Origin: Marinilongibacter aquaticus
Lineage (GTDB): Bacteria > Bacteroidota > Bacteroidia > Cytophagales > Spirosomataceae
NCBI RefSeq assembly: GCF_020149935.1
Contig: NZ_CP083757.1
Coordinates: 2,505,501-2,569,500 of the forward strand
Length of the DNA stretch: 64,000 nucleotides
Direction of reading: 5' to 3'
Shown piece by piece: positions 34,752-50,693 of this stretch (the stretch's first letter is position 1; each line of letters begins with the position of its first letter). A model generated the notes under the pieces. It saw only the letters and a list, made by a program, of their open reading frames with translations, made no database searches and had not been told where the DNA came from. Both the position numbers and the translations under genes were made by a program.

Positions 34752-35735
34752 TCAGCCCCCGATTGTGGTCATGCTTTCACTGACCAGAGAACTTCGTTTT
34801 TTTTCGGCTTCGAAACCATCCTTTGGCCTTTTTTGAAAAACCTCGAGCAGCTCAGCCTTCACGCGTTCGTCATCCGGTTCGCCACGCAGCAAATCCCGAA
34901 GATTCAGCACGCCGTCATCGTACAAACAGGTTTTCAACAAGCCCATTGGCGTGACGCGAATACGGTTGCAGCTTCCGCAAAACGTACGGCTGAATGCCGC
35001 AATTACGCCCACCAAACCTTTAAAGTCCGGTATCCGATAGTTTGAAGAGGTAGAATGCAGCTCATCTTGTACTTTCTGTATCTCGGGATATTCCGTTCTT
35101 AGAGCATTCAAAATACGCGTGTGGCTCATAAAAGCCTCTTTGTTTATTCCACTTCCATTGAAGGGCATTTCTTCAATAAAACGGACAGACACTTCATTCT
35201 CTTTACTGAGAGCGGCCAAAGGTAAAATATCCTGATCGTTTTTGCCGGCCATCACAACGGCATTTACTTTTAGCTTGAAATCGTTTTCGAGCAGAGCATA
35301 AAAGGTATCCAAAACTTTTGGCAATTCGTCGCGTCGCGTCATTTCATGAAAACGTTCACGATCGAGCGTATCCAAGCTTAAGTTGATCTTACGAATCCCC
35401 AGCTCTTTCAGTTCTTTCAAGTGGGGTTTTGTAAGCACTCCATTCGTGGTAATACTCACCTCTTGCACACCCGAAATATCGACCAGCTTTCCAAGAAAAT
35501 GCATCAAATCGCGACGTACAAACGGCTCTCCTCCAGTGATGCGTATTTTGGTTATGCCGAGCTCGGCCAAAATACCCGCCATACGAAGCATCTCTTCAAA
35601 AGTAAGCAGATGAGGTTTTGGTAAAAACTGCACACCCTCTTCGGGCATACAGTAAAAGCAACGCAAATTGCAACGGTCGGTCACAGCCAATCGCAAATAG
35701 GAAATGGGCCTGCCATGATTGTCAAAAATTTGCAT
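34752..35735 (-). CDS. moaA: GTP 3',8-cyclase, molybdenum cofactor synthesis
   Basis: 327 residues, a radical-SAM enzyme that with MoaC makes cyclic pyranopterin from GTP. The N-terminal cluster motif CNLRCFYC (C22, C26, C29) and the SAM loop TGGEPFVR are clear. The C-terminal second-cluster motif CGSCNRIRVTPMGLLKTC is present, and the protein ends in the conserved Gly-Gly tail. The molybdopterin is needed by the nitrate reductase at 43 kb; other moa/moe genes are not in the window. Its start overlaps the end of the cysteine desulfurase gene by 14 bases. Confidence 0.95.
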   Translation of the reverse strand: MQIFDNHGRPISYLRLAVTDRCNLRCFYCMPEEGVQFLPKPHLLTFEEMLRMAGILAELGITKIRITGGEPFVRRDLMHFLGKLVDISGVQEVSITTNGVLTKPHLKELKELGIRKINLSLDTLDRERFHEMTRRDELPKVLDTFYALLENDFKLKVNAVVMAGKNDQDILPLAALSKENEVSVRFIEEMPFNGSGINKEAFMSHTRILNALRTEYPEIQKVQDELHSTSSNYRIPDFKGLVGVIAAFSRTFCGSCNRIRVTPMGLLKTCLYDDGVLNLRDLLRGEPDDERVKAELLEVFQKRPKDGFEAEKKRSSLVSESMTTIGG

Positions 35736-36873
35736 TTCTAATCTCTTTTATAGTTTCACAAACGTGTTCAACAGTATATGCAATGTCCTTTTCAGTAGTG
35801 AATTTCCCTAAAGAAAAACGAACGGAACTGTAAGCCTCCGCATCGCTCAAACCCATAGCTTTCAACACATATGAAGGCTCGGTACTGGCTGAATTACAGG
35901 CAGATCCATTGGATACCGCCACCTTGTTCATTCTGAACAAAATCTCTTCGCCGTCCATTCCATTGAAGAGTATATTTGTGATTCCAGCCACTCGATTAGC
36001 CCCTATTCCATTAATTTGGGCAACAAAATCCAGATTTTCCAAAATGCCCTTCTCCAATTGCACACTCAACGATTCGGCGTGCCGTACATAATTTTCTCTC
36101 TCCCTTTCGGCCATTTCGAAAGCCTTGGCCAAACCTACGATTCCGGGTACATTCAATGTCCCGCTCCTGCGGTTTCTCTGGTGAGCTCCGCCGTGAATTT
36201 GGGGCGACAAAGCCACCTCCTTTTTCACCAACAATGCACCCATGCCCTTCGGGCCATAGATTTTATGCCCAGAAAAACTGAGCAAATCCGCGTCGCATGG
36301 CAAAGGCAATTTGCCCACTGCCTGCGTGGCATCTACATGTACCTTCACATTTTTGCTTCGGGCCCTTTCCAATATTCCTTCCAAGGGTTGAACCACTCCG
36401 GTTTCATTGTTAACCTGCATCACAGACAATAAACAGGAACGACCTGAAAAATGGCTTTCCATCTCATCCAAATCTAGGCATCCGTTTTCGTCGACAGCTA
36501 AAAATATCACCTCTAGCCCTTTTGTTTGCAAATACTTTGCCGTATCGAGTGTGGCCTTGTGTTCCGTTTCTACGGTTATCAACCGCCCTTTGAAATCGAG
36601 ATTTTCGAAAAAGCCCAGCAAGGCCAAATTGATAGACTCGGTAGCTCCCGAAGTGAACACAATCTCTTTTGTACCAAAACCCGAATGCTTTGAAATCGTG
36701 GCCTTGGCTTCGTCTACAGCCTCCTCAGCAAGCCATCCGTAAGCATGAAAACGACTTGCCGCATTACCGAAATGCCGCATCAAGAAAGGCTCCATGGCCT
36801 CAAATACCGCCGAGTCTAAAGGACTCGTAGCGGCATAGTCGAGATAAATCGGTAAGTTTTCAAAGCCCTTCAT
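35722..36873 (-). CDS. Cysteine desulfurase (NifS/IscS-type)
   Basis: 383 residues, PLP-dependent. YLDYAATSPLD opens the fold, HKATLD contains the conserved His, FSGHKIYGPKG holds the PLP lysine (K204), and the active-site Cys lies in SNGSACNSAS (C326). It supplies sulfur for Fe-S clusters or for cofactor sulfuration. Overlaps of 14 bases on each side, with the response regulator upstream and moaA downstream, put it in the nitrate-island operon, where Fe-S and Mo enzymes create demand. The general iscS of the cell may lie elsewhere. Confidence 0.93.
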   Translation of the reverse strand: MKGFENLPIYLDYAATSPLDSAVFEAMEPFLMRHFGNAASRFHAYGWLAEEAVDEAKATISKHSGFGTKEIVFTSGATESINLALLGFFENLDFKGRLITVETEHKATLDTAKYLQTKGLEVIFLAVDENGCLDLDEMESHFSGRSCLLSVMQVNNETGVVQPLEGILERARSKNVKVHVDATQAVGKLPLPCDADLLSFSGHKIYGPKGMGALLVKKEVALSPQIHGGAHQRNRRSGTLNVPGIVGLAKAFEMAERERENYVRHAESLSVQLEKGILENLDFVAQINGIGANRVAGITNILFNGMDGEEILFRMNKVAVSNGSACNSASTEPSYVLKAMGLSDAEAYSSVRFSLGKFTTEKDIAYTVEHVCETIKEIRNANF

Positions 36874-37516
36874 TGGTTACAATCCTCACAAGTTCAACAG
36901 TATTGTTCAAGCCCGTTTTTTTCAGCATACTGGCCCGATGATTGCTCACGGTACGGATACTCAAATTCAATTGCTCGGCAATCTGCTTGCTGCTCATCCC
37001 TTCTGCAATCAATTTCAAAATCACCTTTTCTTTTTTCGAAAGCTTGGACAAAGTAGTACTCGAAACCGCCGGCTGGGGTTTAATATGCCCCTTTCCCTGC
37101 ATGGCCGACACCAATATCGCACTGACTTCGGGCGGAAAATATTTTTCGCCTGCATCCACCACCTTCATGGCCTTCACAATTTCGTCTTTGTCGCTGTCCT
37201 TCAAAATGTATCCATCCACGCCATTGTTTATACTTTGCAGAATATAGTCTGGATCGTTGTGCATAGAAAAAACCAAGACCCTTACTTTCGGATACCTTTT
37301 GGTAAGAATTTTAGCCACCTCAATCCCATTCATTTCAGGCATATTGATATCCAGCAGCACAATATCGGGTTTGAGCTCGGGTACAATTGTCAGGGCTTCG
37401 GCTCCACTGCCCACCTCTCCTACAATTTTAACCCCTTCTTCGTCTTCTAGAAGAAATTTCATCCCTTTTCGCACCACCTCGTGATCATCTACCAGAAGAA
37501 TTTTTATCGGCGACAT
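36860..37516 (-). CDS. NarL/FixJ-family response regulator
   Basis: 218 residues. The receiver domain spans 1-120 with acidic pocket VDDHE (D10, D11) and phosphoacceptor in DIVLLDINMP (D56). A linker rich in Gln/Pro/Ser follows, then a LuxR-type helix-turn-helix (LSKKEKVILKLIAEGMSSKQ, IAEQLNLSIRTVSNHRASML). It is paired with the histidine kinase immediately upstream in the operon and presumably activates the nitrate genes. Its end overlaps the cysteine desulfurase start. Confidence 0.92.
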   Translation of the reverse strand: MSPIKILLVDDHEVVRKGMKFLLEDEEGVKIVGEVGSGAEALTIVPELKPDIVLLDINMPEMNGIEVAKILTKRYPKVRVLVFSMHNDPDYILQSINNGVDGYILKDSDKDEIVKAMKVVDAGEKYFPPEVSAILVSAMQGKGHIKPQPAVSSTTLSKLSKKEKVILKLIAEGMSSKQIAEQLNLSIRTVSNHRASMLKKTGLNNTVELVRIVTNEGL

Positions 37517-37627
37517 ATTTTATATACTGATTTAAATCCCAAGATATAAGACATTGCACGATTTATCAACGTGTAATTGCCCCAATTTGGCAAATCCTGA
37601 TTTAAATCACTCTAAAAGGCCTACACA

Positions 37628-39067
37628 CTAATCCTCATTTATCAATGGCAGTTTTATGAAAATATCTGTACCCTCTCCTTTAATTGTGGTCAATTTAAAC
37701 GTTCCGTTCAGCAAAGCCACGCGGCTTTTCATATTCTCCAAACCGTTGTGAATAAGCGACTGACGACTCCGCTTCAATTCTTGTACATCGAAACCCGTGC
37801 CGTTGTCCGTAATGCTGAATTCGAGCATACCGTCCTTTTCGAGCAAACTTACTTTGGCCTTACTGGCCTTGGCGTATTTCAAGATGTTGTTCAGGGCTTC
37901 TTGAGCAATTCGGTACAAAGCCACTTCCACTTTGTGCCCGTATCGACGCCCCGGATTTTGTACTTCCACTTCGAATTTGGTTTTCGAGCCGATATTGCTT
38001 TGCTGAATCAAAATTTTCAGGGCCGACTCTATCCCGAAATCATTCAAAGCCGTGGGCATAAGATTGAATGATATCGCCCGCGAACTCTCTATGGTATCTT
38101 GCAGAAGCAGATTTACATGGGCATATGCTTTCTGAAACTTTTCGGGCATTTCTGGCGATTTCAAGCGGCCCAAAGCCAGTTTCATTCCCGTCAGCATTTG
38201 ACCCAACCCGTCGTGAATTTCCTGCGACATACGTTTTCTTTCTTCTTCCTGCCCTTCGAGCAAAGCCGCTGTACGGGTCTGGTCTTCTTTTCTTTTCAGT
38301 TCGTACCGCTCTATAGTGGCCCGTTCCAGATCGTTTTGCGTTTTACGAAGCATTTTATTCGAAAGCGAAAGCTGCTCATTAGCTTCTTGCAAACGTTTTT
38401 CCGAACGAATGAACTGAAGAATCACTTTACGAACATAGCGAGCCAAGGGGTTCAGAATAAAAATATATTCGATAAAAAGCGTGAGCAGCGTCAGCAGCAA
38501 AATCAGGAATTCGAAAGCCCGCAAACGGTCAACCTTTTTGGTGGCTTTGGTGTCGTATTCGAACACAATCTTATCCATTCCTGCCAAAAACTGCTCCTCG
38601 TTCATCAACAGGTTGATCTGCATTTCCTGATTCGGCACTTCTCCTTTCTCCACCTGCTCGAAAATGGAGACCATGGTATTGTAAAAAGGCGTAATCTCTT
38701 CGAAAAGACTTTTGATCTCTTCCGAGTTGTTCACCTCAAACCGTTTGCCATCGATCAGTTTATTGTCGCGAAGCCCAACATGAATTCTTCGCCAATCTGC
38801 CAAGCATTCGCTAAAGCTTGCACTGTCCCATACTTCTGTGCTCAGGGCTTTTAAAACCGTCATTTTCGTCAAACGCTGGCTCAGCATCCTTTGCCTTCCG
38901 GCCAAATTGATGACGTGGCTGTTGTCTGCCGATTCGAGCAGCGAGATTTGGATCAACACTTGCCCAAACACCGAGAGCAAAGCCACGATAGACAATGCAA
39001 TGATATATTGCCACGTGAGGCGTTTGGCTACGGTTTGGTCGAAACTGAGTATGTGTTGACGTTTCAT
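37628..39067 (-). CDS. NarX-like sensor histidine kinase with PilJ-type N-terminal sensor domain
   Basis: 479 residues. One membrane helix at about 20-42 and another near 185-208 flank a periplasmic sensor. The sensor contains INLAGRQRMLSQRL (53-66), the NarX/PilJ-type P-box with Arg residues that in NarX contact nitrate. A coiled coil (KRLQEANEQLSLSNKMLRKT) leads to a HisKA_3 dimerisation domain with the phospho-acceptor in RKRMSQEIHDGLGQM (His near 284), then an ATPase domain with DNGTGFDV and GLENMKSRV. The partner response regulator is encoded next in the operon, and the nitrite reductase genes end 114 bases upstream. The combination argues for nitrate/nitrite sensing. Confidence 0.9.
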   Translation of the reverse strand: MKRQHILSFDQTVAKRLTWQYIIALSIVALLSVFGQVLIQISLLESADNSHVINLAGRQRMLSQRLTKMTVLKALSTEVWDSASFSECLADWRRIHVGLRDNKLIDGKRFEVNNSEEIKSLFEEITPFYNTMVSIFEQVEKGEVPNQEMQINLLMNEEQFLAGMDKIVFEYDTKATKKVDRLRAFEFLILLLTLLTLFIEYIFILNPLARYVRKVILQFIRSEKRLQEANEQLSLSNKMLRKTQNDLERATIERYELKRKEDQTRTAALLEGQEEERKRMSQEIHDGLGQMLTGMKLALGRLKSPEMPEKFQKAYAHVNLLLQDTIESSRAISFNLMPTALNDFGIESALKILIQQSNIGSKTKFEVEVQNPGRRYGHKVEVALYRIAQEALNNILKYAKASKAKVSLLEKDGMLEFSITDNGTGFDVQELKRSRQSLIHNGLENMKSRVALLNGTFKLTTIKGEGTDIFIKLPLINED

Positions 39068-39180: not shown

Positions 39181-39525
39181 TCACAATTCGATAAATACTG
39201 TATTACTCTCGATTTTCACCGGATACGTTTTGATTTGATATTCTTCGCCAGAAAGGCAAGCCCCCGTTTGCAATGAAAAGTTTTTCTTGTGGAAAGGACA
39301 AGCCACTTTGGGCTCATCGTCCAGCTCGCCAATCATGCCACGCGACAAAGCCATTTGCTGCTTATGCGGACATAGGTTTTGGGTGGCAAACCACGCTCCC
39401 CGTCGCACAAAATTGTATACTGCAATCTGCTCACCTTCGATAAGGACACAGACTCCGCCATTTTCGGGCACGTCCTCAACCGCACAGGCCGCAACCCATT
39501 TTTTTTCTACTAGTACATTTTCCAT
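39181..39525 (-). CDS. nirD: Assimilatory nitrite reductase small subunit (Rieske-type)
   Basis: 114 residues. A full set of Rieske [2Fe-2S] ligands is present: C52-P-H54 (LCPHKQQ) and C76-x2-H79 (CPFHKKNF). Some NirD proteins, including that of E. coli, lack these ligands, so this small subunit is of the cluster-bearing kind. It works with NirB to reduce nitrite to ammonium. The gene is 22 bases downstream of nirB and ends in front of a hairpin terminator. Confidence 0.93.
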   Translation of the reverse strand: MENVLVEKKWVAACAVEDVPENGGVCVLIEGEQIAVYNFVRRGAWFATQNLCPHKQQMALSRGMIGELDDEPKVACPFHKKNFSLQTGACLSGEEYQIKTYPVKIESNTVFIEL

Positions 39526-39547: not shown

Positions 39548-42088
39548 TCAAACGCCAACCAGATTCCAATCTTTTGCCTTGACCTGCTCACGCATGGGCA
39601 CCAATTCCACAGCCGGGTCTTTTACTTCGGGGGCATTCACAAAGTGCGAAAAGCGTTTGCGTAAATCAGGGTTTTCGACCACCTCTTTCCATTCGCATTT
39701 GTAATTGCCCAAAATACCTTTCATCTCGTTCTCCAACTCTTCGGCTATACCCAGCACGTCGTCTACAATCACCGACTTTAGATATTTTATCCCCCCTTCC
39801 ATCTTTTCTATCCACGTGGCCGTCCGCTGAAGCGGTTCTGCTGTACGGATATAGAACATCAAGAAGCGATCGAGATAACTGATCAAGGTTTCTTCGTCGA
39901 GGTCTGTGGCGAACAATTCGGCATGTCTAGGTTTGGTGCCGCCATTGCCCCCCAAATACAGATTCCAGCCATTTTCGGTAGCGATAATGCCAAAGTCTTT
40001 GCTTTGGGCTTCTGCACATTCGCGTGTACAACCCGACACCGCGGATTTGAGTTTGTGCGGCGACCGCAAGCCTTTGTAGCGGTTCTCCACTTTTATGGCA
40101 AAACTCACCGCATCTTGCACGCCAAACCGGCACCAAGTAGTGCCCACGCAACTTTTAACGGTACGCAAAGCCTTACCGTAGGCATGCCCACTTTCGAAAC
40201 CGGCCGCCACCAACTCTTCCCAGATTTTTGGCAAATCGCCCACATGAGCCCCGAACATATCAATCCGTTGGCCTCCGGTTATTTTAGTATAAAGGCCGTA
40301 TTTTTTCGCGATTTCTCCGATGACAATCAAGCCTTCTGGAGTAATTTCTCCACCCGGGATACGGGGCACAACAGAGTAAGTGCCCCCTCTTTGAATGTTG
40401 GCCAAAAAGCGATCGTTTGAATCTTGAGACACATCTCGGCCTTTGGCCAATATGTTTTCGTTCCACAAGCTGGCCAAAATAGACGACACTACCGGCTGGC
40501 ACGTTTCACAGCCGTGGCCTTTCCCCAATACAGCGATCACTTCGTCAAAGGTTTGCAAACTTTTGAGCTTCACCAGACTAAGCAACTCCTGTCGTGTATA
40601 ATCGAAATGTGCACAGATCACTTTTCGAACACTTAGCCCTTGTTCTTTCAATAAGCCATCGAGAAGGTCTTTGACCAATGGTGTACATCCGGCACAGCCC
40701 GTACACGCCTTGGTTTCCTTTTTAATGCCCTCCAATTTGAGAATACCCTTTTCGGAAACCGCCTGCGATATATCGGCTTTCGACACCGATTCACAGGAAC
40801 AAATTAAAGCCGAGTCGGGCAAAGCCATTACTCCAGAGCCTTCTTCGCCGCCTCTCGAACCCAAAATCAAATCCTCGGGATCGGCGGGAATAGGCATGGC
40901 ATTGAGGCATATTTGCTGAAGCATGTTGTATTGTTCGGCATCGCCTATCAACACGCCCCCCAATAATTTCTTGTTGAAATTATCGATGTTTATCCGCTTG
41001 TAAACTCCTTTCGCTCGGTTTTCATAGACAATGGTCTGGCATTCGGGCTCTTCAACAAAGGCATTCCCGAAACTGGCTACATCTACACCGATAAGCTTCA
41101 GTTTTGTACTCATATCAAAACCCGTGAACTCCACTTTATCGCTTGCAAATGTATTGGCCACCTGATAATGAATGGTATTGAGAGCCACTTCGGCCATTTC
41201 GTAACCCGGAGCCACAAGACCATAAATCATGCCATCGTAAAGGGCACATTCGCCAATCGCCAAAATATACGGGTCGCTCGTTTGCATGCGTTCGTTCACC
41301 TCAATCCCTCCGCGGCCACCGACTTTCAAACCTGTTTGGCGTGCGAGCTCGTCTCTTGGCTTTATCCCAGCCGAAATCACCACCATGTCGGTTTCCAAAA
41401 ATTGACCGTCGTAAAACTCCAAGCCCGTTACAGCCTTTTGGCCCGAAAATCGGGCGGTATTTTTATTGGTATGTGTAGTGATCCCCAAACTGGCAAGTTT
41501 CGATTCCAATATACTCGAACCCGCCCCATCAATTTGACGCGGCATCAATCGGGGAGCAAACTCAACGACATGAGCATCACTTATTCCGAGATCGAGAAGA
41601 GCTTTTGCCGCTTCTAAACCCAATAATCCACCGCCAATCACCACACCACGACGAGCCCTTTGAGCATATGCCTTCATCATATCCAAATCTTCGATGGTTC
41701 GGTAAACGAACACTCCGTCCAAATCCACCCCTTCTATTGGCGGCACAAAGGCACCAGACCCTGTGGCCAATACCAGATGATCGTAGCCAATCACTCTCCC
41801 CTTTAAAGAGCTTACCGTCTTGGCTTTCGCATCGATCTCCACCACAGGATCTCCCAAAAAGAGCCCTATGCCGTTTTCTTGATACCAACTTAGGGGAGCC
41901 ATCGTGAGCTCTTCGATCGACTTTTCCCCAAAATACGCACTCAAGTGTACACGGTCGTAAGCTGGCCTTGGTTCTTCTCCGAACACGAGGATTTCAAAAA
42001 GCGAAGCAAATGGAGAAGCCAAAGCCTTTTCGCAAAACTTATAGCCAACCATCCCATTCCCGACAACTACAATTTTGGACTTTCTCAT
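39548..42088 (-). CDS. nirB: Assimilatory NAD(P)H nitrite reductase large subunit
   Basis: 846 residues, the normal NirB length. An FAD/NAD(P)H reductase module (VVVGNGMVGYKF at 7-18; VIGGGLLGLEAAKALL) is followed by two BFD-like [2Fe-2S] segments: ICSCESVSKADI with CTGCAGC, then a second with CETC. The C-terminal siroheme half has ferredoxin-like and catalytic parts, with cluster ligands SCVGTTWC (near 646) and SGCTREC (near 686). It performs six-electron reduction of nitrite to ammonium in the cytosol. Divergent from the siroheme/nitrate reductase operon across a 226-base control region. Confidence 0.96.
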   Translation of the reverse strand: MRKSKIVVVGNGMVGYKFCEKALASPFASLFEILVFGEEPRPAYDRVHLSAYFGEKSIEELTMAPLSWYQENGIGLFLGDPVVEIDAKAKTVSSLKGRVIGYDHLVLATGSGAFVPPIEGVDLDGVFVYRTIEDLDMMKAYAQRARRGVVIGGGLLGLEAAKALLDLGISDAHVVEFAPRLMPRQIDGAGSSILESKLASLGITTHTNKNTARFSGQKAVTGLEFYDGQFLETDMVVISAGIKPRDELARQTGLKVGGRGGIEVNERMQTSDPYILAIGECALYDGMIYGLVAPGYEMAEVALNTIHYQVANTFASDKVEFTGFDMSTKLKLIGVDVASFGNAFVEEPECQTIVYENRAKGVYKRINIDNFNKKLLGGVLIGDAEQYNMLQQICLNAMPIPADPEDLILGSRGGEEGSGVMALPDSALICSCESVSKADISQAVSEKGILKLEGIKKETKACTGCAGCTPLVKDLLDGLLKEQGLSVRKVICAHFDYTRQELLSLVKLKSLQTFDEVIAVLGKGHGCETCQPVVSSILASLWNENILAKGRDVSQDSNDRFLANIQRGGTYSVVPRIPGGEITPEGLIVIGEIAKKYGLYTKITGGQRIDMFGAHVGDLPKIWEELVAAGFESGHAYGKALRTVKSCVGTTWCRFGVQDAVSFAIKVENRYKGLRSPHKLKSAVSGCTRECAEAQSKDFGIIATENGWNLYLGGNGGTKPRHAELFATDLDEETLISYLDRFLMFYIRTAEPLQRTATWIEKMEGGIKYLKSVIVDDVLGIAEELENEMKGILGNYKCEWKEVVENPDLRKRFSHFVNAPEVKDPAVELVPMREQVKAKDWNLVGV

Positions 42089-42314: not shown

Positions 42315-43073
42315 ATGAAATTGTCATTAATAGGTGCGGGACCAGGAGATCCAGAATTAATCACACTCAAGGCGGTTCGCCTTTTGCAGGAAGCCGATAT
42401 CATCCTATATGACGCCTTGGCGAACAAGGCCTTTTTGCAATACGCCAAAAAGGAGGCCGAGTTGATTTACGTAGGCAAGCGTCTACAAAAACACAGCGTT
42501 TCGCAAGACGAAATCAACCGTATAATTCTGCAAAACTGCCTCGCAGGCAAACACGTGCTCAGACTGAAGGGGGGCGATCCCATCGTATTTGGCCGCGGAT
42601 ACGAGGAAAAACAATTCGTAGAATCATTTGGAATAGAAACAGAAATCGTTCCGGGCATCAGCAGCTGCATTGCCGCACCAAGCTCGGCCGACATTCCAGT
42701 AACCTGTCGGGGCATAAGCGAAAGCTTTTGGGTAATCACCGGACATACGAAAGACCGCGGCCTTCCGCAAGACATCCGCTTGGCTGCGAAATCAAACGCC
42801 ACAATCATTATACTGATGGGCACGGCCAAACTACCGGAAATTGTGCACATTTTCTTGGACGAAGGCCGTCAAGACCTTCCTATCGCCATAATCGAAAACG
42901 GCACACGGCCATCGGAACGGGTATTGATTGGCGAAATGCAGAACATCTTGAGCAAAAATGCGGAAAGCAAATTGAGCAATCCAGCCGTAATTGTCATCGG
43001 GGAGACCGTTCGACTGGGCAAGGAAAAACTTACGGCCGCACTTTCAGGCCACCTAAAAACTCGGGTGGCATGA
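42315..43073 (+). CDS. cobA: Uroporphyrinogen-III C-methyltransferase
   Basis: 252 residues from the ATG at 42315 (the frame to 42276 is rejected). It methylates uroporphyrinogen III twice to precorrin-2, the first step toward siroheme, the prosthetic group of NirB. Motifs: LIGAGPGDPELITLKA at the N-terminus, YVGKR, LKGGDPIVFGRGYEE and the EIVPGISS loop. It is a stand-alone SUMT with no CysG-type dehydrogenase/ferrochelatase domain; that function must lie elsewhere. ATGA overlap (43070-43073) couples it to the nitrate reductase gene. Confidence 0.94.
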   Translation: MKLSLIGAGPGDPELITLKAVRLLQEADIILYDALANKAFLQYAKKEAELIYVGKRLQKHSVSQDEINRIILQNCLAGKHVLRLKGGDPIVFGRGYEEKQFVESFGIETEIVPGISSCIAAPSSADIPVTCRGISESFWVITGHTKDRGLPQDIRLAAKSNATIIILMGTAKLPEIVHIFLDEGRQDLPIAIIENGTRPSERVLIGEMQNILSKNAESKLSNPAVIVIGETVRLGKEKLTAALSGHLKTRVA

Positions 43074-46000
43074 GAACAGAAGACAGAACATACAAATCGA
43101 CCTGCTGTTATTGTGGCACAGGCTGTGGTGTGGAAATTAACCGAATCTCGCCATCCAAAATCGAGATAGAAGGCGACCGCACACACCCTGTGAACAAAGG
43201 AATGTTGTGCTCAAAAGGCCTAAACCTTCACCACACCGTCAACGACCGCAGCGACCGCCTTTTGTATCCCCAAATGCGGCACAGCAAAAGCTCGCCCCTG
43301 CAACGCTGCTCTTGGGACCAAGCCTTGAACAGAGCAGCGGCCACCTTCAAAAGTATAATCAGAAAATACGGCCCTGAGGCCGTGGCCTTTTATGTTTCGG
43401 GCCAATGCCTCACAGAAGAATACTACCTCTGGAACAAACTGATGAAAGGCTTTATTGGCTCAAACAACATCGACACCAACTCAAGATTGTGTATGAGCTC
43501 GGCGGTCGTAGGATACAAAAAATCCCTTGGCGAAGACAGCGTTCCTGTCTGCTACGACGACATCGAACTGTCCGATTGCATTTTGGTAACCGGTGCCAAT
43601 CCCGCATGGTGCCACCCCATTATTTGGCGGCGTGTAGAGGCCCACAAAGCGGCCAACCCCCATGTGAAAATTATTTGCGTAGACCCCAGAAAAACACAAA
43701 CTGCAAACTCTGCAGATTTGCACATCGGCCTTTTACCGGGCACCGATGTGTTCTTGCACAATGCAATTGCTCGTGAATTAATTGAAAACCAGTGGATAGA
43801 TCAGGCATTTATTGCCGACCACGTAGAAGGGTTTGATGAATACAAAAGCGAAGTTTTTTCCCAGAGCATTGAAGAATACGCGGCGAATTGCGGCATTTCG
43901 ACCGAAGAAATAAAAACCGTAGCCCAATGGATCGCCCAAGCCAAAGGCTTTCTTTCCATGTGGACCATGGGCTTAAACCAGTCTGTAATTGGTGTAAACA
44001 AGAACCTCTCCCTCATAAGCCTTTCTTTGATCACCGGAAAAATAGGCAAACCCGGCAACGGTCCTTTTTCACTTACGGGCCAACCCAATGCCATGGGAGG
44101 CCGCGAGGTTGGCGGCCTTTCAAATATGCTGGCCTCGCACCGTGAACTTTCCAACCCCCAGCACATCGCCGAAATGGAAGAGCTGTGGGGCGTAAGCGAA
44201 CTTTCTACAAAACCCGGACTTTCGGCCACTGAAATGTTCGAAGCCTTGGATAGCGGAAAGCTAAAGGCCATTTGGATAAGCTGCACCAACCCTATGGTGA
44301 GCCTACCGAATGTGCAACAAGCAGAAGCCGCCCTTAAAAAGGCTCCGTTTGTAGTTGTGCAAGAAATTTCCAACAAGTCGGACAGCACCCAATTCGCCGA
44401 TGTTCTGCTTCCTGCGGCGGCCTGGACAGAAAAAGAGGGCACCATGACCAATGCCGAAAGGCGAATCTCCTTACTGGAAAAAGTCATCGAGCCGCCCGGA
44501 GAGTGTCTTCCCGATGCAGAAATCATTTGCCGATTTGCACAGAAAATGGACTGGGAAGACTGGTTCAGCTTCTCAAACAGCGAGGCTATTTACAACGAGT
44601 ACAAGAAAACCACAGCCGGCACACGCATAGACTGCACAGGCGTTTCGTACAACTCATTACGTAAAAAAACCATTCAATGGCCTTACCCTTCTTCGGGAAC
44701 AGAAACGCATAGGCTTTTCGAAGACCACAAATTCTATACGCCCTCGGGCAAGGCACGCCTCTTTCCCACAAAACCCGAGAACCATTCGGAACCGCAAACA
44801 AAAGACTTTCCTTTGATCTTGCTTACGGGCAGAGTACGTGACCAGTGGCATACCCAAACAAAAACGGGCAAGGTCAACCGTCTGAAACAGCATTTGCCGA
44901 CCCCTTTTGTGGAAATCCATCCGCAAGACGCCCAAACGAGGAATATCGTGCAGGACCAGCTGGTCGAAATCTGCGGAAGAAGAGGCAAGGCCCGCGTGAA
45001 AGCCCAACTCAGCGAAGAGGTAAAGCCCGGCACCTGCTTTATGCCCATGCATTGGGGGAAAATCAAAAAACACGACCTCGCGAGAGCCAACAACCTCACC
45101 AGTCCTTTGGTAGACCCCATCTCCAAAGAGCCCGATTTCAAGTTTGCGGCCGTAGAACTGCGACCTTATAAAAAAAACAAAGAAAAAATTTTGGTAATCG
45201 GAGCCGGCTCGGCCAGTCTTGGTTTCATTTCAACCTATCGAAAATTCAATCAAAGCGATGAAATTGAAGTATTCTCCAAAGAAATTCATCCCTTCTACAA
45301 CCGAGTTATGCTGCCCGACTACGTAAGCGGCACACAAAATTGGAAACAACTGATCAAACTTCGCGAAGATGAATTTGCCGTGCGGGGCATAAAAGTACAC
45401 AAAGGCGTTTCCATTGCCGATATCGACCGCAAACATAAAGTTGTTGTCGATTCAGAAGGACAAGAACACCGTTACGACAAGCTATTCTTGGGTATGGGCA
45501 GCCGTGCATTTATGCCCTCAAATTTTCCGAAAATCCCGGGCATTTTCAATATGCGGAGCCGATTGGACGCCGATGCCTTAGCCCCCTTTATATCCACGGG
45601 CGGCCGAGCGATAATAGTTGGCGGCGGGCTTCTCGGCCTTGAAATGGCCGCTTCGCTCCGCCAAATCAATGTACCCGTAACGGTTGTACAAAGAATCGGC
45701 CGATTCATGGATCGCCAACTCGATCCACTCGGCAGCTCCATTTTGCACGAGGAGATAGAAAAACTCGGCATAGAAGTGTATTACAACAACGAAGTAGAGC
45801 AGTTTTTCGGGACAAAACACCTGGAAGCTGTCCGCCTGAAATCCGGACATAAAATAGACTGCTCTTTACTTATTGTAGCCGCAGGCACGCGACCGAATAT
45901 TGAATTGGCACAAAAAGCCAAACTGCAATGCCAAAGAGGCATCTTGGTAAACGACTACCTGCAAACCTCAGACCCCGACATTTTTGCTTGCGGGGAAATC

Positions 46001-46582
46001 GCCCAATGGCAAGACAAAATGTGGGGAATCACGGCTGCCGCGGAACAGCAAGCCGAAGTAGCGGCCGGCTTTCTAGCGGGCGATATTACCCAACCGTATT
46101 CCGGCAGCCTGAGCATGAACATCCTCAAAATCGAAGGGCTCAACCTTTGCTCACTTGGCGAAGTGGAAATACCCAAAGGAGCGACCGATTACGAGGAGGT
46201 GGTATTTATAGACAAAGCCAAACATTACTACAAAAAATGCCTGATCCGAAACGACCGGCTGGTTGGGGCCATTTTGATTGGCGACAAGTCGGAATTCCTC
46301 GAGTTCAAAGAGCTCATTTCGAAGCAAATCGAATTGTCTGAAAAACGCTTACAGCTTCTGCGTTCAGGCCAAAAGGCCGAAGCTACAATTGGCAAGCTTA
46401 TTTGCTCCTGCAACAATGTGGGCGAAGGAAATATCAAGGCAAAAATAAAGGGTGGCTGCAAAGATTTTGCCCAACTCTGCGAACAGACAGGAGCCGGAAC
46501 GGGCTGCGGTTCTTGCCGCTCAGAAGTCCGCAGTATTTTGGAAGAAACCAGTCGTGAAATCGAAATAAAAGTATTGCAATGA
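43070..46582 (+). CDS. Assimilatory nitrate reductase with fused FAD/NAD(P)H and BFD [2Fe-2S] modules
   Basis: 1170 residues from the ATG at 43070; the frame upstream lies inside cobA. Residues 1 to about 690 are a molybdopterin oxidoreductase: [4Fe-4S] motif C12-x2-C15-x3-C19 with C47, and the probable Mo-ligand Cys in NSRLCMSS (C141). From about 706 an FAD/NAD module follows (KILVIGAGSASLGF; IIVGGGLLGLEMAASL; TSDPDIFACGEIA). The end is a BFD-like domain (ICSCNNVGEG ... CGSC, about 1108-1155). This equals Bacillus NasC and NasB joined in one chain, predicting direct NAD(P)H-to-nitrate electron flow in the cytosol. The first FAD motif has Ser for the third Gly. The gene overlaps its downstream neighbour by ATGA. 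Confidence 0.92.
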   Translation: MRTEDRTYKSTCCYCGTGCGVEINRISPSKIEIEGDRTHPVNKGMLCSKGLNLHHTVNDRSDRLLYPQMRHSKSSPLQRCSWDQALNRAAATFKSIIRKYGPEAVAFYVSGQCLTEEYYLWNKLMKGFIGSNNIDTNSRLCMSSAVVGYKKSLGEDSVPVCYDDIELSDCILVTGANPAWCHPIIWRRVEAHKAANPHVKIICVDPRKTQTANSADLHIGLLPGTDVFLHNAIARELIENQWIDQAFIADHVEGFDEYKSEVFSQSIEEYAANCGISTEEIKTVAQWIAQAKGFLSMWTMGLNQSVIGVNKNLSLISLSLITGKIGKPGNGPFSLTGQPNAMGGREVGGLSNMLASHRELSNPQHIAEMEELWGVSELSTKPGLSATEMFEALDSGKLKAIWISCTNPMVSLPNVQQAEAALKKAPFVVVQEISNKSDSTQFADVLLPAAAWTEKEGTMTNAERRISLLEKVIEPPGECLPDAEIICRFAQKMDWEDWFSFSNSEAIYNEYKKTTAGTRIDCTGVSYNSLRKKTIQWPYPSSGTETHRLFEDHKFYTPSGKARLFPTKPENHSEPQTKDFPLILLTGRVRDQWHTQTKTGKVNRLKQHLPTPFVEIHPQDAQTRNIVQDQLVEICGRRGKARVKAQLSEEVKPGTCFMPMHWGKIKKHDLARANNLTSPLVDPISKEPDFKFAAVELRPYKKNKEKILVIGAGSASLGFISTYRKFNQSDEIEVFSKEIHPFYNRVMLPDYVSGTQNWKQLIKLREDEFAVRGIKVHKGVSIADIDRKHKVVVDSEGQEHRYDKLFLGMGSRAFMPSNFPKIPGIFNMRSRLDADALAPFISTGGRAIIVGGGLLGLEMAASLRQINVPVTVVQRIGRFMDRQLDPLGSSILHEEIEKLGIEVYYNNEVEQFFGTKHLEAVRLKSGHKIDCSLLIVAAGTRPNIELAQKAKLQCQRGILVNDYLQTSDPDIFACGEIAQWQDKMWGITAAAEQQAEVAAGFLAGDITQPYSGSLSMNILKIEGLNLCSLGEVEIPKGATDYEEVVFIDKAKHYYKKCLIRNDRLVGAILIGDKSEFLEFKELISKQIELSEKRLQLLRSGQKAEATIGKLICSCNNVGEGNIKAKIKGGCKDFAQLCEQTGAGTGCGSCRSEVRSILEETSREIEIKVLQ

Positions 46583-48009
46583 GAGACGGATTTCAAACCA
46601 TACGGATCAATTTTCTTGGCGGAATCGCCTCGCCCGGCGAACTGAGAGACCTGCTGCTGGCCATGCGAAGCTGCGAGGTAAGCCGGGTACGTTTCGGCCT
46701 TCGGCAACAATTGCTTTTCAGGATGTCGGTATTACACGAAAAGAATTTCAGCCAACGTATGAAAACCCTAAACCAAAGGTTTTCGGTTGATAAAAATACG
46801 CATCCGAACATTGTCAGTTCCTACGTTTCGGAAGAAGTTTTCCAAACGGGCAATTGGCTGAGCGAAGGCATTTATAAAGATGTGTTCGATTCCTTTGACA
46901 GGAACCCCGAATTGAAGGTAAACATTTCGGATGCCGAACAGAGTTTCACGCCATTCTTCTCGGGCCACATCAATTTCATTTCGTCCGCTCAAGCCAACTT
47001 TTGGCATTTGTATGTTCGCAAACCCAAAACCAATTCGCTACTGAGCTACGATAAACTCATTTTTTCAAACGAAATAGGTGCCGTATCCGCCAAAATTGAA
47101 GAAAATATCCTCAATGGAAATTCAGATTGTTTCGAAGACCTTGTTTTGGGCATTAGCTCAAAAGCCAAGCAAACCCTCAAACTCCCGAAATTTTCACTTC
47201 CGTATTACGAGGGCTTCAATCGATATGGAAAAAAATCATGGCTGGGCATTTATAAAAGAGACGAATATTTCAGCATTTCTTTCCTGATCGACCTTTGCAC
47301 CCTGTGCATCAACACAAAAATCGGGGAAATATGCCTAAGCCCTTGGAAGTCGATAATCGTCAAAAACATCAACGAAAAAGACCGAAAAAAATGGAGTGCA
47401 TTGCTTGCTCAGCACGACATCAATGTGCGGCATGCCGCCAATGAACTCAATTGGCAAGTAGAAGACAACTCGACGGCAGCCCTAAAACTCAAAATGAAAC
47501 TCGCCCGTTATTTCAACAAAAAAGACCTCCGCACCTTCGGCATTTGCCTTGGCATAAAAACCTTGCCCAAAACGGAAGTTTTCGCTTCGATTCTGGTGAC
47601 CCAAAGAAGCCTAAAAGCACTCCCCATTTTCAAAGTTTACGACATTACATATACAACCGATTACGATCCGAATGGCCGAGAAGTAGCTTTTTACGCCAAA
47701 TCGATTTTGCCTTTTCAGCTGAAAAGTCGCCTACGGAAATCCATTCTGGAATTCAATACACATATTGCCGGAAAACCGCTTTCCGAAAAAATTGAGACTC
47801 CGGATATTTCAGAAAGACCATCGCAAATCAAAACGGTACAACAATGCCCCAATTGTTTGGCCGTTTACGATCCCGAGTTTGGCGACATCTTGAACGATAT
47901 TTCACCGGGAGTCCCCTTTGAAGAACTCCCTACAGAGCACCGTTGCCCGATTTGCGAGACAGAAAAGCAGGCATTCAAAATCATTTCGCTCGAATTGGCC
48001 CAGGGCTAA
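46579..48009 (+). CDS. Nitrite/sulfite-reductase-like protein lacking cluster cysteines, fused to a C-terminal rubredoxin
   Basis: 476 residues. Residues 421-470 are a rubredoxin: C423-x2-C426, VYDPEFGD, PGVPFEELP and C456-x2-C459; the usual Trp two residues before the third Cys is His. Residues 1-400 look like a sulfite/nitrite reductase scaffold: ferredoxin-like half-domains at RVRFGLRQQLLF (36-47) and GEICLSPWKSII (249-260), and a region (77-148) collinear with the NirB cluster segment. At the four positions where NirB has cysteines this protein has Ser/Tyr, Phe, Ala and Phe, so siroheme-Fe4S4 catalysis is not expected. It is ATGA-coupled to the nitrate reductase. Probable electron carrier, assembly or regulatory partner; function unknown. 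Confidence 0.75.
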   Translation: MRDGFQTIRINFLGGIASPGELRDLLLAMRSCEVSRVRFGLRQQLLFRMSVLHEKNFSQRMKTLNQRFSVDKNTHPNIVSSYVSEEVFQTGNWLSEGIYKDVFDSFDRNPELKVNISDAEQSFTPFFSGHINFISSAQANFWHLYVRKPKTNSLLSYDKLIFSNEIGAVSAKIEENILNGNSDCFEDLVLGISSKAKQTLKLPKFSLPYYEGFNRYGKKSWLGIYKRDEYFSISFLIDLCTLCINTKIGEICLSPWKSIIVKNINEKDRKKWSALLAQHDINVRHAANELNWQVEDNSTAALKLKMKLARYFNKKDLRTFGICLGIKTLPKTEVFASILVTQRSLKALPIFKVYDITYTTDYDPNGREVAFYAKSILPFQLKSRLRKSILEFNTHIAGKPLSEKIETPDISERPSQIKTVQQCPNCLAVYDPEFGDILNDISPGVPFEELPTEHRCPICETEKQAFKIISLELAQG

Positions 48010-48061: not shown

Positions 48062-49387
48062 ATGACAGCAGTAGACTTTAAAGGCAGAGCAAAAAAACTC
48101 AACATTTTCAGTTTTGCAGCTCCACATATGCGAACCTTTCACATCACCTGGTTCTCATTTTTCCTTTGCTTCTTTGGCTGGTTTGGCATTGCCCCGCTTA
48201 TGGCTGTGGTTCGCGACGAATTGCACTTAAGCAAAGCCGAAATTGGCAATACAATCATTGCTTCCGTCGCAATCACGGTAATTGCACGCCTGCTCATCGG
48301 CTGGCTATGCGACAAGATTGGCCCACGGATCACCTACACCGCCCTTTTGATCATTGGGGCCTTTCCCGTAATGCTCATCGGCCTTTCCGATTCCTACGCC
48401 ACCTTTTTGGTCTTTCGTTTAATGATCGGCGTAATCGGAGCCTCCTTTGTCATCACACAGTACCATACCTCGGTAATGTTTGCCCCCAATATTGTGGGTA
48501 CGGCAAATGCCACCTCAGCAGGCTGGGGAAACCTTGGTGGCGGAGTGACTCAAATGGTCATGCCCTTAATTTTCGCCGGTTTTGTAGGCTTGGGCTATAC
48601 ACAATCTTCAGCATGGCGTTTGGCCATGGTCGTTCCCGGGGTAATCATGCTTATTATGGCTGCGGTATACTATTTCGGCACAAAAGACACGCCACAAGGC
48701 AATTTCAAAGACATCGACAGGTCGAAAGAAAAGGCAGACAAAGACGGCAGTTTCTTAAAAGCCGTTTCAGACTACAGGGTTTGGGCTCTGTTCCTTATTT
48801 ATGGAGCTTGCTTCGGCATAGAACTGACGGTAAACAATATCATGGCCATTTATTATAAAGATCAATTTGGCCTTTCGCTGGCCAGTGCGGGGATGATCGC
48901 GGGCCTATTTGGCCTTATGAACATATTTGCCCGCTCTTTGGGTGGATATTTTGGCGACAAAGCGGGCATTAAATCCGGACTAAAGGGCCGTGTTCGTTTC
49001 CTGTTCTTTGTCTTGTTTTTCGAAGGCTTGGCCTTGCTACTCTTTTCGCAAATGTCGGTGCTGCCAATAGCCATTGCCACCATGATCGTATTCAGCTTGT
49101 TCGTGCAAATGTCTGAAGGAGCCACCTTTTCTGTTGTACCCTTCATCAACCGAAAGGCAATCGGCTCGGTTTCTGGTATTGTAGGAGCAGGCGGAAATGC
49201 CGGAGCCGTAATGGCTGGCTTCCTTTTCAAATCTGAAAGCATCAGCTACCAAGAAGCCCTATTCTATCTCGGCGTGGTGGTCACGGCCGTTTCTTTTCTC
49301 AGTTTCGTGGTGCGATTCTCATCGGCAAACGAGGCCGAAGTGAAACAAGATATGGAAATCACCAGCACTGAACCCGCCCTGGCCTAA
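48062..49387 (+). CDS. MFS nitrate/nitrite transporter (NarK/NasA type)
   Basis: 441 residues from the ATG at 48062, about 12 membrane helices. Nitrate-porter signatures are present: FFGWFGIAPLMAVVRDELHL in helix 1, GTANATSAGWGNLGGGVTQM (the glycine-rich motif between helices 4 and 5) and the second motif GIVGAGGNAGAVMAGFLF. The conserved Arg of helix 2 (IARLLIGWLCDKIGPR) agrees with anion binding. It imports nitrate for the reductase encoded upstream, and possibly exports nitrite. It follows the rubredoxin gene by 52 bases. Confidence 0.93.
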   Translation: MTAVDFKGRAKKLNIFSFAAPHMRTFHITWFSFFLCFFGWFGIAPLMAVVRDELHLSKAEIGNTIIASVAITVIARLLIGWLCDKIGPRITYTALLIIGAFPVMLIGLSDSYATFLVFRLMIGVIGASFVITQYHTSVMFAPNIVGTANATSAGWGNLGGGVTQMVMPLIFAGFVGLGYTQSSAWRLAMVVPGVIMLIMAAVYYFGTKDTPQGNFKDIDRSKEKADKDGSFLKAVSDYRVWALFLIYGACFGIELTVNNIMAIYYKDQFGLSLASAGMIAGLFGLMNIFARSLGGYFGDKAGIKSGLKGRVRFLFFVLFFEGLALLLFSQMSVLPIAIATMIVFSLFVQMSEGATFSVVPFINRKAIGSVSGIVGAGGNAGAVMAGFLFKSESISYQEALFYLGVVVTAVSFLSFVVRFSSANEAEVKQDMEITSTEPALA

Positions 49388-49412: not shown

Positions 49413-50693
49413 ATGAAAAAATACATATACCTTCAATTTTTGCTCCTTCTTGCCGGCATCTGCTGGGGGCAAACCGCTTGGGGTCAATTTAAACTTTCGG
49501 CTGAAATTCGCCCAAGAACCGAGTTCAGGAATGGCTTTAAAACGCCACGATCGGAAGGCGACAAGCCCGCCATTTTTACCGAACAGAGAAGTCGGCTCTA
49601 CTTCGATTACGCCCAAGAAAAATACAAAATACGGGTGGCACTTCAAGACATTCGTTTCTGGGGGCAAACCGCCCAAGTTTTTAAACAGGAAGCGGGCACT
49701 ACCTTTTTGAGTGAAGCTTGGGGAGAGCTGCAATTAAGCCCCAATTTTTCGGTAAAAGCCGGAAGGCAAATTATTTCCTACGATAACCAACGCTTTCTGG
49801 GCGGCCTAGAGTGGGCCCAACAAGGTCGCAGGCACGACGCCCTGCTTTTGAAATACAAAAATGAAGAAAAGCAAACCGCCCTCGACTTGGGCTTGGCCTT
49901 CAATGCAGACCAAGATGTGGCCGAACCTGCTTTCATCCAAAGTCCGGGAGCAAGTTACTATTCGGTAAACGGCAACTACAAAAGCCTGCAATACGCATGG
50001 TTTCACCGCGACTTTGCCAAAGCCAAGCTTTCTCTTTTGGCACTCAATAGCGGCACCCAAAACCCCGACTCCACCCTTTCGAACAAACAGACTTTAGGCA
50101 TCGTGGCTTCACGCAATTGGGGCCGCATTACACTGGCTACCGATTCGTATTACCAAACGGGGCAGGCCAATCACCAGAAGGTAAATGCCTTTTTGCTTGG
50201 CCTAAGTGCAAGCCTGCAAACCAAGTGGACACCCATCACTTTGGGCTACGAGTGGGTTTCGGGCAAAAGCAACACAAGCCAGTCTGGCAAAACAACAGCC
50301 TTTAGCCCAGATTACGGCACAAACCATATGCACAATGGCTTTATGGATTATTTTTATGTAGGCCCAGCGAACGGGAATGTGGGCGTAAAAGACCTGTACA
50401 TCAAAACCAGTTTCAACATAGGGAAAGGCAAACTTGCTGCCCACGGCCATCAATTTTCCACCGGGTCGGTCCAGCAAAGCGAAAACAAAGGAGAGCTGAA
50501 AAGCAACATGGGCACAGAAATCGACCTTGTGTTTTCTCAGAATTTCGGAAAGGACGTAAAGTTGGATGTGGGATTCTCACAGCTGTTTGCGAGCGGAACA
50601 TTACTGACACTTCGGGGAAAAAGCGAAAAATCGAACAATTGGGCGTGGATTATGCTCACGTTTAAGCCTACACTTTTCCAAACGGAGCATTAG
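49413..50693 (+). CDS. Alginate-export-like outer-membrane porin
   Basis: 426 residues. MKKYIYLQFLLLLAGICWGQ begins a Sec signal peptide; the mature part starts with FKLSAEIRPRTEFRNGF, typical of the alginate_exp (AlgE-like) porin family. Periodic amphipathic strands run to a C-terminal WIMLTFKP. Lying 25 bases after the nitrate transporter gene and ending the operon, it most likely lets nitrate or nitrite cross the outer membrane rather than exporting alginate, since no alginate genes are present. The function is inferred from position. Confidence 0.78.
   Translation: MKKYIYLQFLLLLAGICWGQTAWGQFKLSAEIRPRTEFRNGFKTPRSEGDKPAIFTEQRSRLYFDYAQEKYKIRVALQDIRFWGQTAQVFKQEAGTTFLSEAWGELQLSPNFSVKAGRQIISYDNQRFLGGLEWAQQGRRHDALLLKYKNEEKQTALDLGLAFNADQDVAEPAFIQSPGASYYSVNGNYKSLQYAWFHRDFAKAKLSLLALNSGTQNPDSTLSNKQTLGIVASRNWGRITLATDSYYQTGQANHQKVNAFLLGLSASLQTKWTPITLGYEWVSGKSNTSQSGKTTAFSPDYGTNHMHNGFMDYFYVGPANGNVGVKDLYIKTSFNIGKGKLAAHGHQFSTGSVQQSENKGELKSNMGTEIDLVFSQNFGKDVKLDVGFSQLFASGTLLTLRGKSEKSNNWAWIMLTFKPTLFQTEH

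Follow-up and report, generated by a model that had tools for sequence, protein, structure and literature searches.

A siroheme reductase-like protein without canonical cluster cysteines, fused to rubredoxin, is genetically linked to the fused assimilatory nitrate reductase of Bacteroidota

Siroheme reductases form an old enzyme superfamily, and a nitrate-assimilation cluster of Marinilongibacter aquaticus raises the question of what such a protein might do when the cysteines of its catalytic cluster are gone. The cluster lies in a stretch of 64,000 nucleotides (contig NZ_CP083757.1, positions 2,505,501 to 2,569,500; hereafter the window), in which the gene at 46579-48009 stands directly behind that of a fused assimilatory nitrate reductase (NasA). 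It encodes a protein for which we coined the working name RubSIR: a body resembling the two-fold siroheme sulfite and nitrite reductases (SiR/NiR), followed by a C-terminal rubredoxin. The answer that we favour, tentatively and at a little less than an even chance, is that RubSIR serves the fused NasA as a dedicated partner subunit, the body docking on the enzyme and the rubredoxin carrying electrons.

The initial annotation, made from the sequence alone, had proposed a two-fold ferredoxin-like/siroheme scaffold in the first 400 residues, and profile alignment and structure prediction both agree with this. With a RubSIR profile built from an 82-row alignment, profile-profile alignment placed residues 7-398 co-linear with 28 two-fold SiR/NiR proteins (probability 96, E 4e-9, hhalign E-values varying with alignment depth). 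The AlphaFold model of residues 1-400, a check that the initial annotation had itself suggested, reached a predicted local distance difference score (pLDDT) of 94.8 and a predicted template modelling score (pTM) of 0.92 and displays the full fold. A Foldseek search of this model against the PDB gave 31 matches at E ≤ 0.001, all of them siroheme nitrite/sulfite reductases (TM-score 0.63-0.76 on the query, identity 9-13%), among them tobacco NiR (3b0h_B, TM-score 0.76 over 462 columns) and M. tuberculosis NirA (1zj8, E 2e-15). Chance resemblance was rejected on the strength of these three results, and residues 1-400 are predicted to form a complete two-fold siroheme nitrite/sulfite reductase fold. 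The full-length model (pLDDT 86.8) found the same family, but superposed on the SiR matches with a root mean square deviation of 15-18 Å, probably owing to inclusion of the rubredoxin in the alignment; residues 403-413, with pLDDT below 50, read in the model as a flexible linker.

Among sequence searches, Pfam matched NIR_SIR_ferr at residues 2-48 (E 5e-5, 23.3 bits, slightly below the 24-bit cutoff), and this family was matched by 30/30 aligned RubSIR relatives (E ≤ 0.1; best 1e-17). The sole SiR match of residues 1-400 in a PDB sequence profile search was 1aop, at E 1.9, and NCBIfam returned rubredoxin-type matches for 29 of 30 RubSIR members, together with weak matches to CobG (three members) or SiR (one). 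Conservation was tallied at selected columns over 121 sequences, the window protein and 120 distinct others; R42, S81, W93, N115, D118, Q121, G129, N132, P208, E211, G212 and W221 are identical in all of them.

A particular kinship with NirB, the large subunit of the NADH nitrite reductase encoded in the same window, was not borne out. The by-eye alignment with NirB in the initial annotation was reproduced in its register (RubSIR 7-154 against the SiR half of NirB), but weakly (probability 25, E 7.7e-4, with a shallow NirB set), and the co-linear two-fold register was the stronger one. Scored with the RubSIR profile, 30 NirB parts obtained 0.4-6.0 bits against 5.3-27.1 bits for SiR/NiR, with the best single scores in a Bacteroidota group of ~700-aa SiRs, and NirB was rejected as the nearest relative. 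The FAD/NAD(P)H and BFD domains and the cluster-bearing SiR half that make up NirB were not found in RubSIR: the two proteins have a ferredoxin-like/SiR half domain and a gene cluster in common, whereas NirB joins one cluster-bearing half to FAD/NADH and BFD domains and RubSIR consists of two halves without canonical cysteines and without a flavin domain. With NirA, plant NiR and CysI/SiRHP, RubSIR shares the two-fold fold, the co-linear alignment and the pocket residues R42, Q43 and N77, but differs from them in the missing cysteines, in the length of its body (~400 residues versus 441-572 in solved chains), in the rubredoxin fusion and in an identity of 9-13%.

The motifs CxxxxxC and GCxxxC, whose four cysteines bind [4Fe-4S] and bridge siroheme, are present in 30/30 SiR/NiR relatives taken from 28 compared genomes, which we call active by motif and similarity. 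In neither register, that of NirB or the co-linear one with its loose local alignment, does RubSIR have a Cys at the four aligned ligand places, in support of the absence of all four canonical cluster cysteines proposed earlier; C323 lies a few residues ahead of the aligned GCxxxC motif. The NirB of the window does carry SCVGTTWC (at residue 646) and SGCTREC (at residue 685), as the initial annotation had read. Taking the anion ligands of CysI to be R83, R153, K215 and K217, we found that R42/Q43 correspond to the RQ of 1aop in a HMMER alignment, that residue 9 matches R83 (R or K in 106/121) and that Pro76 aligns with Arg153, a position at which Arg occurs in 0/121 sequences. N77 is kept in 118/121. 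K113 (118/121) and N115 (121/121) stand in a register that is off by one against the presumed CysI Lys pair, and they could not be equated with the catalytic Lys/Asn pair of NiR.

The rubredoxin is intact. Pfam matched PF00301 at residues 422-466 with E 1e-13, and the four cysteines announced by the initial annotation are found at 423, 426, 456 and 459. The domain was matched in 29/30 aligned members, that of locus L043 being shortened but equipped with four Cys, and the rubredoxin cysteines are present in 119/121 sequences. For the two domain-less copies, no rubredoxin was found in the forward frames over ~230-250 bases beyond the stop. One of them lies near a contig end in G275, a genome without a NasA or NirB match; the other belongs to a Runella metagenome-assembled genome (MAG; locus L060, contig C190 of G118) and has no NasA on its 14.5-kb contig, while the G118 genome also holds a 303-aa NasA fragment and a second, divergent RubSIR piece. 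A four-Cys rubredoxin (PF00301) placed C-terminally on a larger redox protein is likewise known from the flavorubredoxin NorV, although the body of NorV is a flavodiiron NO reductase and that of RubSIR is SiR-like.

Apart from the canonical positions, the body carries other cysteines, which the initial annotation had overlooked and which are conserved to different degrees: C240 in 119 of the 121 sequences, C243 in 116, C252 in 100 and C323 in 92. All four occur together in 83/121, the window protein among them, 38/121 lack one or more, the CxxC pair (C240/C243) is the only part retained in 13 sequences, and some members have just two Cys in the body. It is quite improbable, in our estimation, that RubSIR is a protein with new ligands, whose body uses residues such as C240, C243, C252 and C323 to bind siroheme, a cluster or some other metal, even though most members have all four, the pocket positions R42 (121/121), Q43 (119/121), R/K at residue 9 (106/121) and N77 (118/121) are kept and the operon includes a gene for a methylase that we take to be uroporphyrinogen-III methyltransferase (SUMT). 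Both canonical Cys motifs of the 30 compared relatives are missing, Pro replaces the presumed Arg153, bodies with two Cys exist, and the SUMT gene is accounted for by NirB. An intact site formed by other residues had been named in the initial annotation as evidence against its view: the conserved cysteines may form one in the 83 sequences, yet the 38 incomplete ones imply that it is unneeded across the family. From the residues, a second metal site is possible in a subgroup of RubSIR, whereas a family-wide site of this kind is not supported.

The genomic distribution of RubSIR was surveyed in 150 genomes of the GTDB family and 296 genomes of the phylum, two samples that overlap; in the phylum sample, fused NasA was counted where a match extended from the Mo domain through to the end of BFD, and NirB at E ≤ 1e-120. 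RubSIR is a Bacteroidota family frequent in parts of the phylum, being found in 113/150 family genomes and 23/296 phylum-sample genomes. The phylum sample holds fused NasA in 27 genomes and NirB in 22, and all three proteins occur in 22, with G275 having RubSIR alone; outside these 22 genomes no NirB match was found among the 296, and 22/22 NirB genomes thus hold RubSIR. In the family sample, NasA was detected in 110 genomes, NirB in 111, all three in 108 and none in 36, and 110/110 NasA-positive genomes hold RubSIR. The exceptions, RubSIR without NasA (G033, G066, G128) or without NirB (G010, G118, G128) and NirB without RubSIR (G025), fall in six assemblies of 350-890 contigs, that of G025 being 66% complete. 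Distant RubSIR hidden in the remaining phylum genomes was considered and rejected: a profile search gave 24/296, and the only extra genome, G382, has a 77-residue match (E 3e-5) in a 698-aa frame, which was taken as SiR and left uncounted, as was a weak match in G327.

The link to NasA postulated in the initial annotation is upheld by gene order. In 22/22 phylum-sample genomes with NasA and RubSIR, the latter is encoded on the strand of NasA and no more than 1 kb downstream of it, and the two genes adjoin even where NirB sits on another contig (G031, C23 versus C55; G303, C58 versus C53) or more than 1 Mb off on the same one (G074). In the window, the NasA stop and the RubSIR start overlap by ATGA, as originally read, and translational coupling of the two genes is likely. 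Among 80 named loci, which are biased to close relatives because they are the best-scoring 80 of at least 548 RubSIR relatives, 77 have NasA in the same orientation no more than 2 kb upstream, with a gap of more than 300 bases in 29, often holding another gene; the remaining loci are L045 (contig end), L060 and L103. For 34 loci with all four genes at the length cut-offs, the partial correlation of distances, which are not independent, was 0.65 between RubSIR and NasA and -0.12 between RubSIR and NirB, given the other two proteins. RubSIR does not, as the initial annotation had asked, always accompany a fused nitrate reductase, since 22/27 fused-NasA genomes of the phylum sample hold it.

Two observations on the locus stand apart. 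Within the same family, a divergent RubSIR group (~29-36% identity) occurs in G031, G016, G113 and comparable genomes; their NasA and NirB are more divergent too, which gives the impression of an exchange of the complete set. The locus L103:9986-11470, from a Bacteroidetes MAG, encodes a complete RubSIR in which C243 is replaced, and no NasA was found within 10 kb of it.

When NirB was searched for (E ≤ 1e-40) in the five fused-NasA genomes without RubSIR (G367, G199, G157, G304 and G328), nothing matched apart from the flavin domain of their own NasA. In 5/5 of them NasA has as neighbours a NirA-like reductase of the two-fold type, a flavodoxin and a protein resembling flavodoxin reductase (flavin reductase); flavodoxin or reductase was found in 0/14 chosen RubSIR loci (L130-L143). 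NirB and RubSIR are thus swapped for NirA, flavodoxin and flavin reductase around NasA in other lineages. So clean a module swap around one nitrate reductase in the sampled genomes turns the balance of nitrate and nitrite assimilation into a testable question.

Concerning these five clusters, that of G328 (L128:7398-11053) has its NasA divided between two frames, the start with the N-terminal Fe-S motif lying in another frame, which is either a sequencing error or a decayed gene. In all of them (L124-L128), a further match of the flavodoxin query, 24-29 residues long, falls close to the beginning of the reductase gene, as though an N-terminal tag were common to flavodoxin and reductase.

The distribution also bears on a different function, namely that RubSIR couples NasA with NirBD, passing on electrons, as proposed for NasG of Paracoccus, or nitrite, so that nitrite does not build up. 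The co-occurrence of RubSIR, NirB and fused NasA in 22/296 phylum and 108/150 family genomes, the confinement of NirB in the phylum sample to genomes with RubSIR, the absence of RubSIR from 5/5 fused-NasA genomes with NirA and without NirB, and the NasG precedent in the passages of PMC4724949 would all fit such a coupler. We nevertheless consider it unlikely, as NirB can be unlinked while RubSIR adjoins NasA (G031, G303 and G074) and the partial correlation of RubSIR-NirB distances is -0.12.

In the mechanism that we propose for a partner of NasA, the two-fold siroheme-reductase body, having lost its catalytic cluster and presumably its siroheme, would dock on NasA, and the flexible C-terminal rubredoxin would carry single electrons between the flavin/[2Fe-2S] side of NADH-dependent enzymes (NasA, possibly NirB) and the nitrate-reducing site. 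Besides the SiR fold devoid of canonical cysteines, the gene order, the presence of RubSIR in every NasA-positive family genome, the module swap and the RubSIR-NasA distance correlation, such a role is favoured by an NADH-rubredoxin-reductase-type C-terminal domain in NasA (PF18267, E 6e-24) and by the fact that for neither rubredoxin-less copy does the genome or contig show a linked NasA. According to the passages of PMC4724949 that treat them, there is a precedent in NasG (Paracoccus, proposed) and Flp (Bradyrhizobium, by mutant growth), carriers that feed NasC. As dedicated carriers of assimilatory nitrate reductases, these may be functional analogues of RubSIR; since NasG is described there as a ferredoxin and Flp as a flavoprotein, the likeness would be functional only, and homology is not expected.

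Several points weigh against a NasA partner of this kind. NasA already contains FAD, BFD [2Fe-2S] and [4Fe-4S] domains of its own, so that its need for a carrier is not obvious, and 5/27 genomes have this domain set but no RubSIR (with the NasA start of G328 in the other frame). PF18267 is also found in NirB and is hence not diagnostic, and since RubSIR is found in every phylum-sample genome with NirB, the partner could instead be NirB. The co-divergence of RubSIR and NasA may reflect gene adjacency and shared ancestry, NirA, flavodoxin and reductase may simply be a nitrite reductase module and not a replacement, and the model leaves unused a second site that is suggested by the conserved cysteines of the body. 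Somewhat less probable is the fuller picture in which a former siroheme reductase, after the loss of its canonical metal centre, was kept as an electron-carrying docking subunit of NasA and now couples this enzyme with NirBD, its body joined to a rubredoxin and, in most members, possibly provided with a new four-cysteine site; NirBD with RubSIR and NirA with flavodoxin and flavin reductase would then be interchangeable modules around the same fused NasA.

Further genes beside RubSIR point in another direction. A PF09655-like gene (Nitr_red_assoc, presumably the family called NarM in cyanobacteria) is present in 44/80 named loci, between NasA and RubSIR in 28 and directly after RubSIR in 16; Pfam confirms PF09655 in one separate and one fused member and gives no match to it in RubSIR. 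Both proteins are thus linked to nitrate reductase in the same clusters, but that of PF09655 is encoded by a separate gene. When one PF09655 protein was used as query, a match was found in 1/28 sampled genomes and not in the window genome. A MobA-like cluster is represented in 38/80 named loci (one member checked by Pfam). These genes recall a maturation factor, by which RubSIR would aid the insertion of the Mo cofactor or of Fe-S clusters into NasA, its rubredoxin and body cysteines handling metal or sulfur. In addition to the PF09655-like and MobA-like genes, the MoaA-like gene and the class-V aminotransferase of cysteine-desulfurase type in the window, the position of the rubredoxin-less L060 copy between MoeA and XdhC and the presence of C240/C243 in 114/121 members would suit this role. 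Its probability is nonetheless low, because the PF09655 protein co-occurs with RubSIR, which hence is no simple replacement for it, matches of the single query being confined to one sampled genome, and because five fused-NasA genomes manage without RubSIR.

Among the loci concerned, seven (L095:8952-9926 and six similar ones) encode, between NasA and RubSIR, a fusion of PF09655 with a GNAT acetyltransferase, which was checked for L095. The rubredoxin-less copy of the Runella MAG was located with MoeA and XdhC at L060:8208-12044.

Our literature search, mostly outside subscription journals, found no characterised protein built of a SiR body and a rubredoxin, in agreement with the initial annotation, and no described siroheme reductase in which both halves are without canonical cluster cysteines and which is conserved as the partner of another enzyme. 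The gene is nevertheless in print under another name: nitrate operons of Aquirufa list a 'rubredoxin' (PMC12528234, PMC11861422), and rubredoxin is tabulated in the same Aquirufa strains as the nitrate genes (PMC10821818), the SiR-like body not being mentioned in the passages concerned. Two of four plasmid copies of RubSIR are annotated as 'rubredoxin' as well, and the family is masked by this label wherever annotation was seen.

In the window, RubSIR sits in a nitrate-assimilation cluster, of which the minus strand carries NirD and NirB, and the plus strand the SUMT-like methylase, NasA, RubSIR, a transporter of the major facilitator superfamily (MFS) and a porin (Table 1).

Table 1. Features of RubSIR and of the surrounding nitrate-assimilation genes, in window positions
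Feature	Position	Strand	Remarks
NirD, Rieske-type small subunit	39181..39525	-	
NirB, NADH nitrite reductase large subunit	39548..42088	-	cluster cysteines intact
Tetrapyrrole methylase	42315..43073	+	Pfam; taken to be SUMT (siroheme precursor)
SUMT/NasA overlap, ATGA	43070-43073	+	
Fused assimilatory nitrate reductase NasA	43070..46582	+	molybdopterin/[4Fe-4S] domains, FAD/NAD(P)H reductase domain, BFD [2Fe-2S] (Pfam)
NasA stop/RubSIR start overlap, ATGA	46579..46582	+	NasA TGA = 46580-46582
RubSIR gene	46579..48009	+	476 aa, ATG start; two-fold siroheme-reductase-like body without canonical cluster cysteines, C-terminal rubredoxin
First ferredoxin-like half domain, residues 2-48	46582..46722	+	R42 in 121/121, Q43 in 119/121
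First SiR lobe, ~residues 49-205	46723..47193	+	S81, W93, N115, D118, Q121, N132 identical in 121/121
Second ferredoxin-like half, ~residues 206-280 (PYYEG..., GEICLSPWKSII)	47194..47418	+	
CxxC (C240, C243)	47296..47307	+	both in 114/121 members
Segment co-linear with [4Fe-4S]/siroheme cysteine loops of active enzymes, ~residues 284-330	47428..47568	+	no Cys aligned with a ligand
Rubredoxin domain, residues 422-466	47842..47976	+	Cys 423/426/456/459
MFS transporter	48062..49387	+	nitrate/nitrite (NarK-type) by context
Outer-membrane porin-like protein (Alginate_exp)	49413..50693	+	Pfam

A scan for promoters and terminators was uninformative (8 promoters versus 8.8 expected; 18 terminators versus 13.9 expected, standard deviation 3.3). 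That RubSIR is a sensor of redox state, nitrite or NO regulating NasA or the operon is very improbable: an inactive enzyme fold with a redox-sensitive Fe(Cys)4 site could conceivably be built for sensing, but neither a DNA-binding nor a signalling domain was detected in RubSIR by Pfam, and the window already has a histidine kinase of PilJ type and a response regulator of LuxR type, a pair that we presume to resemble NarX and NarL. These two genes lie on the minus strand at 34752-39067, leading into nirBD, together with the MoaA-like Mo-cofactor gene and the class-V aminotransferase of cysteine-desulfurase type, and form a compact nitrate regulon with nirBD.

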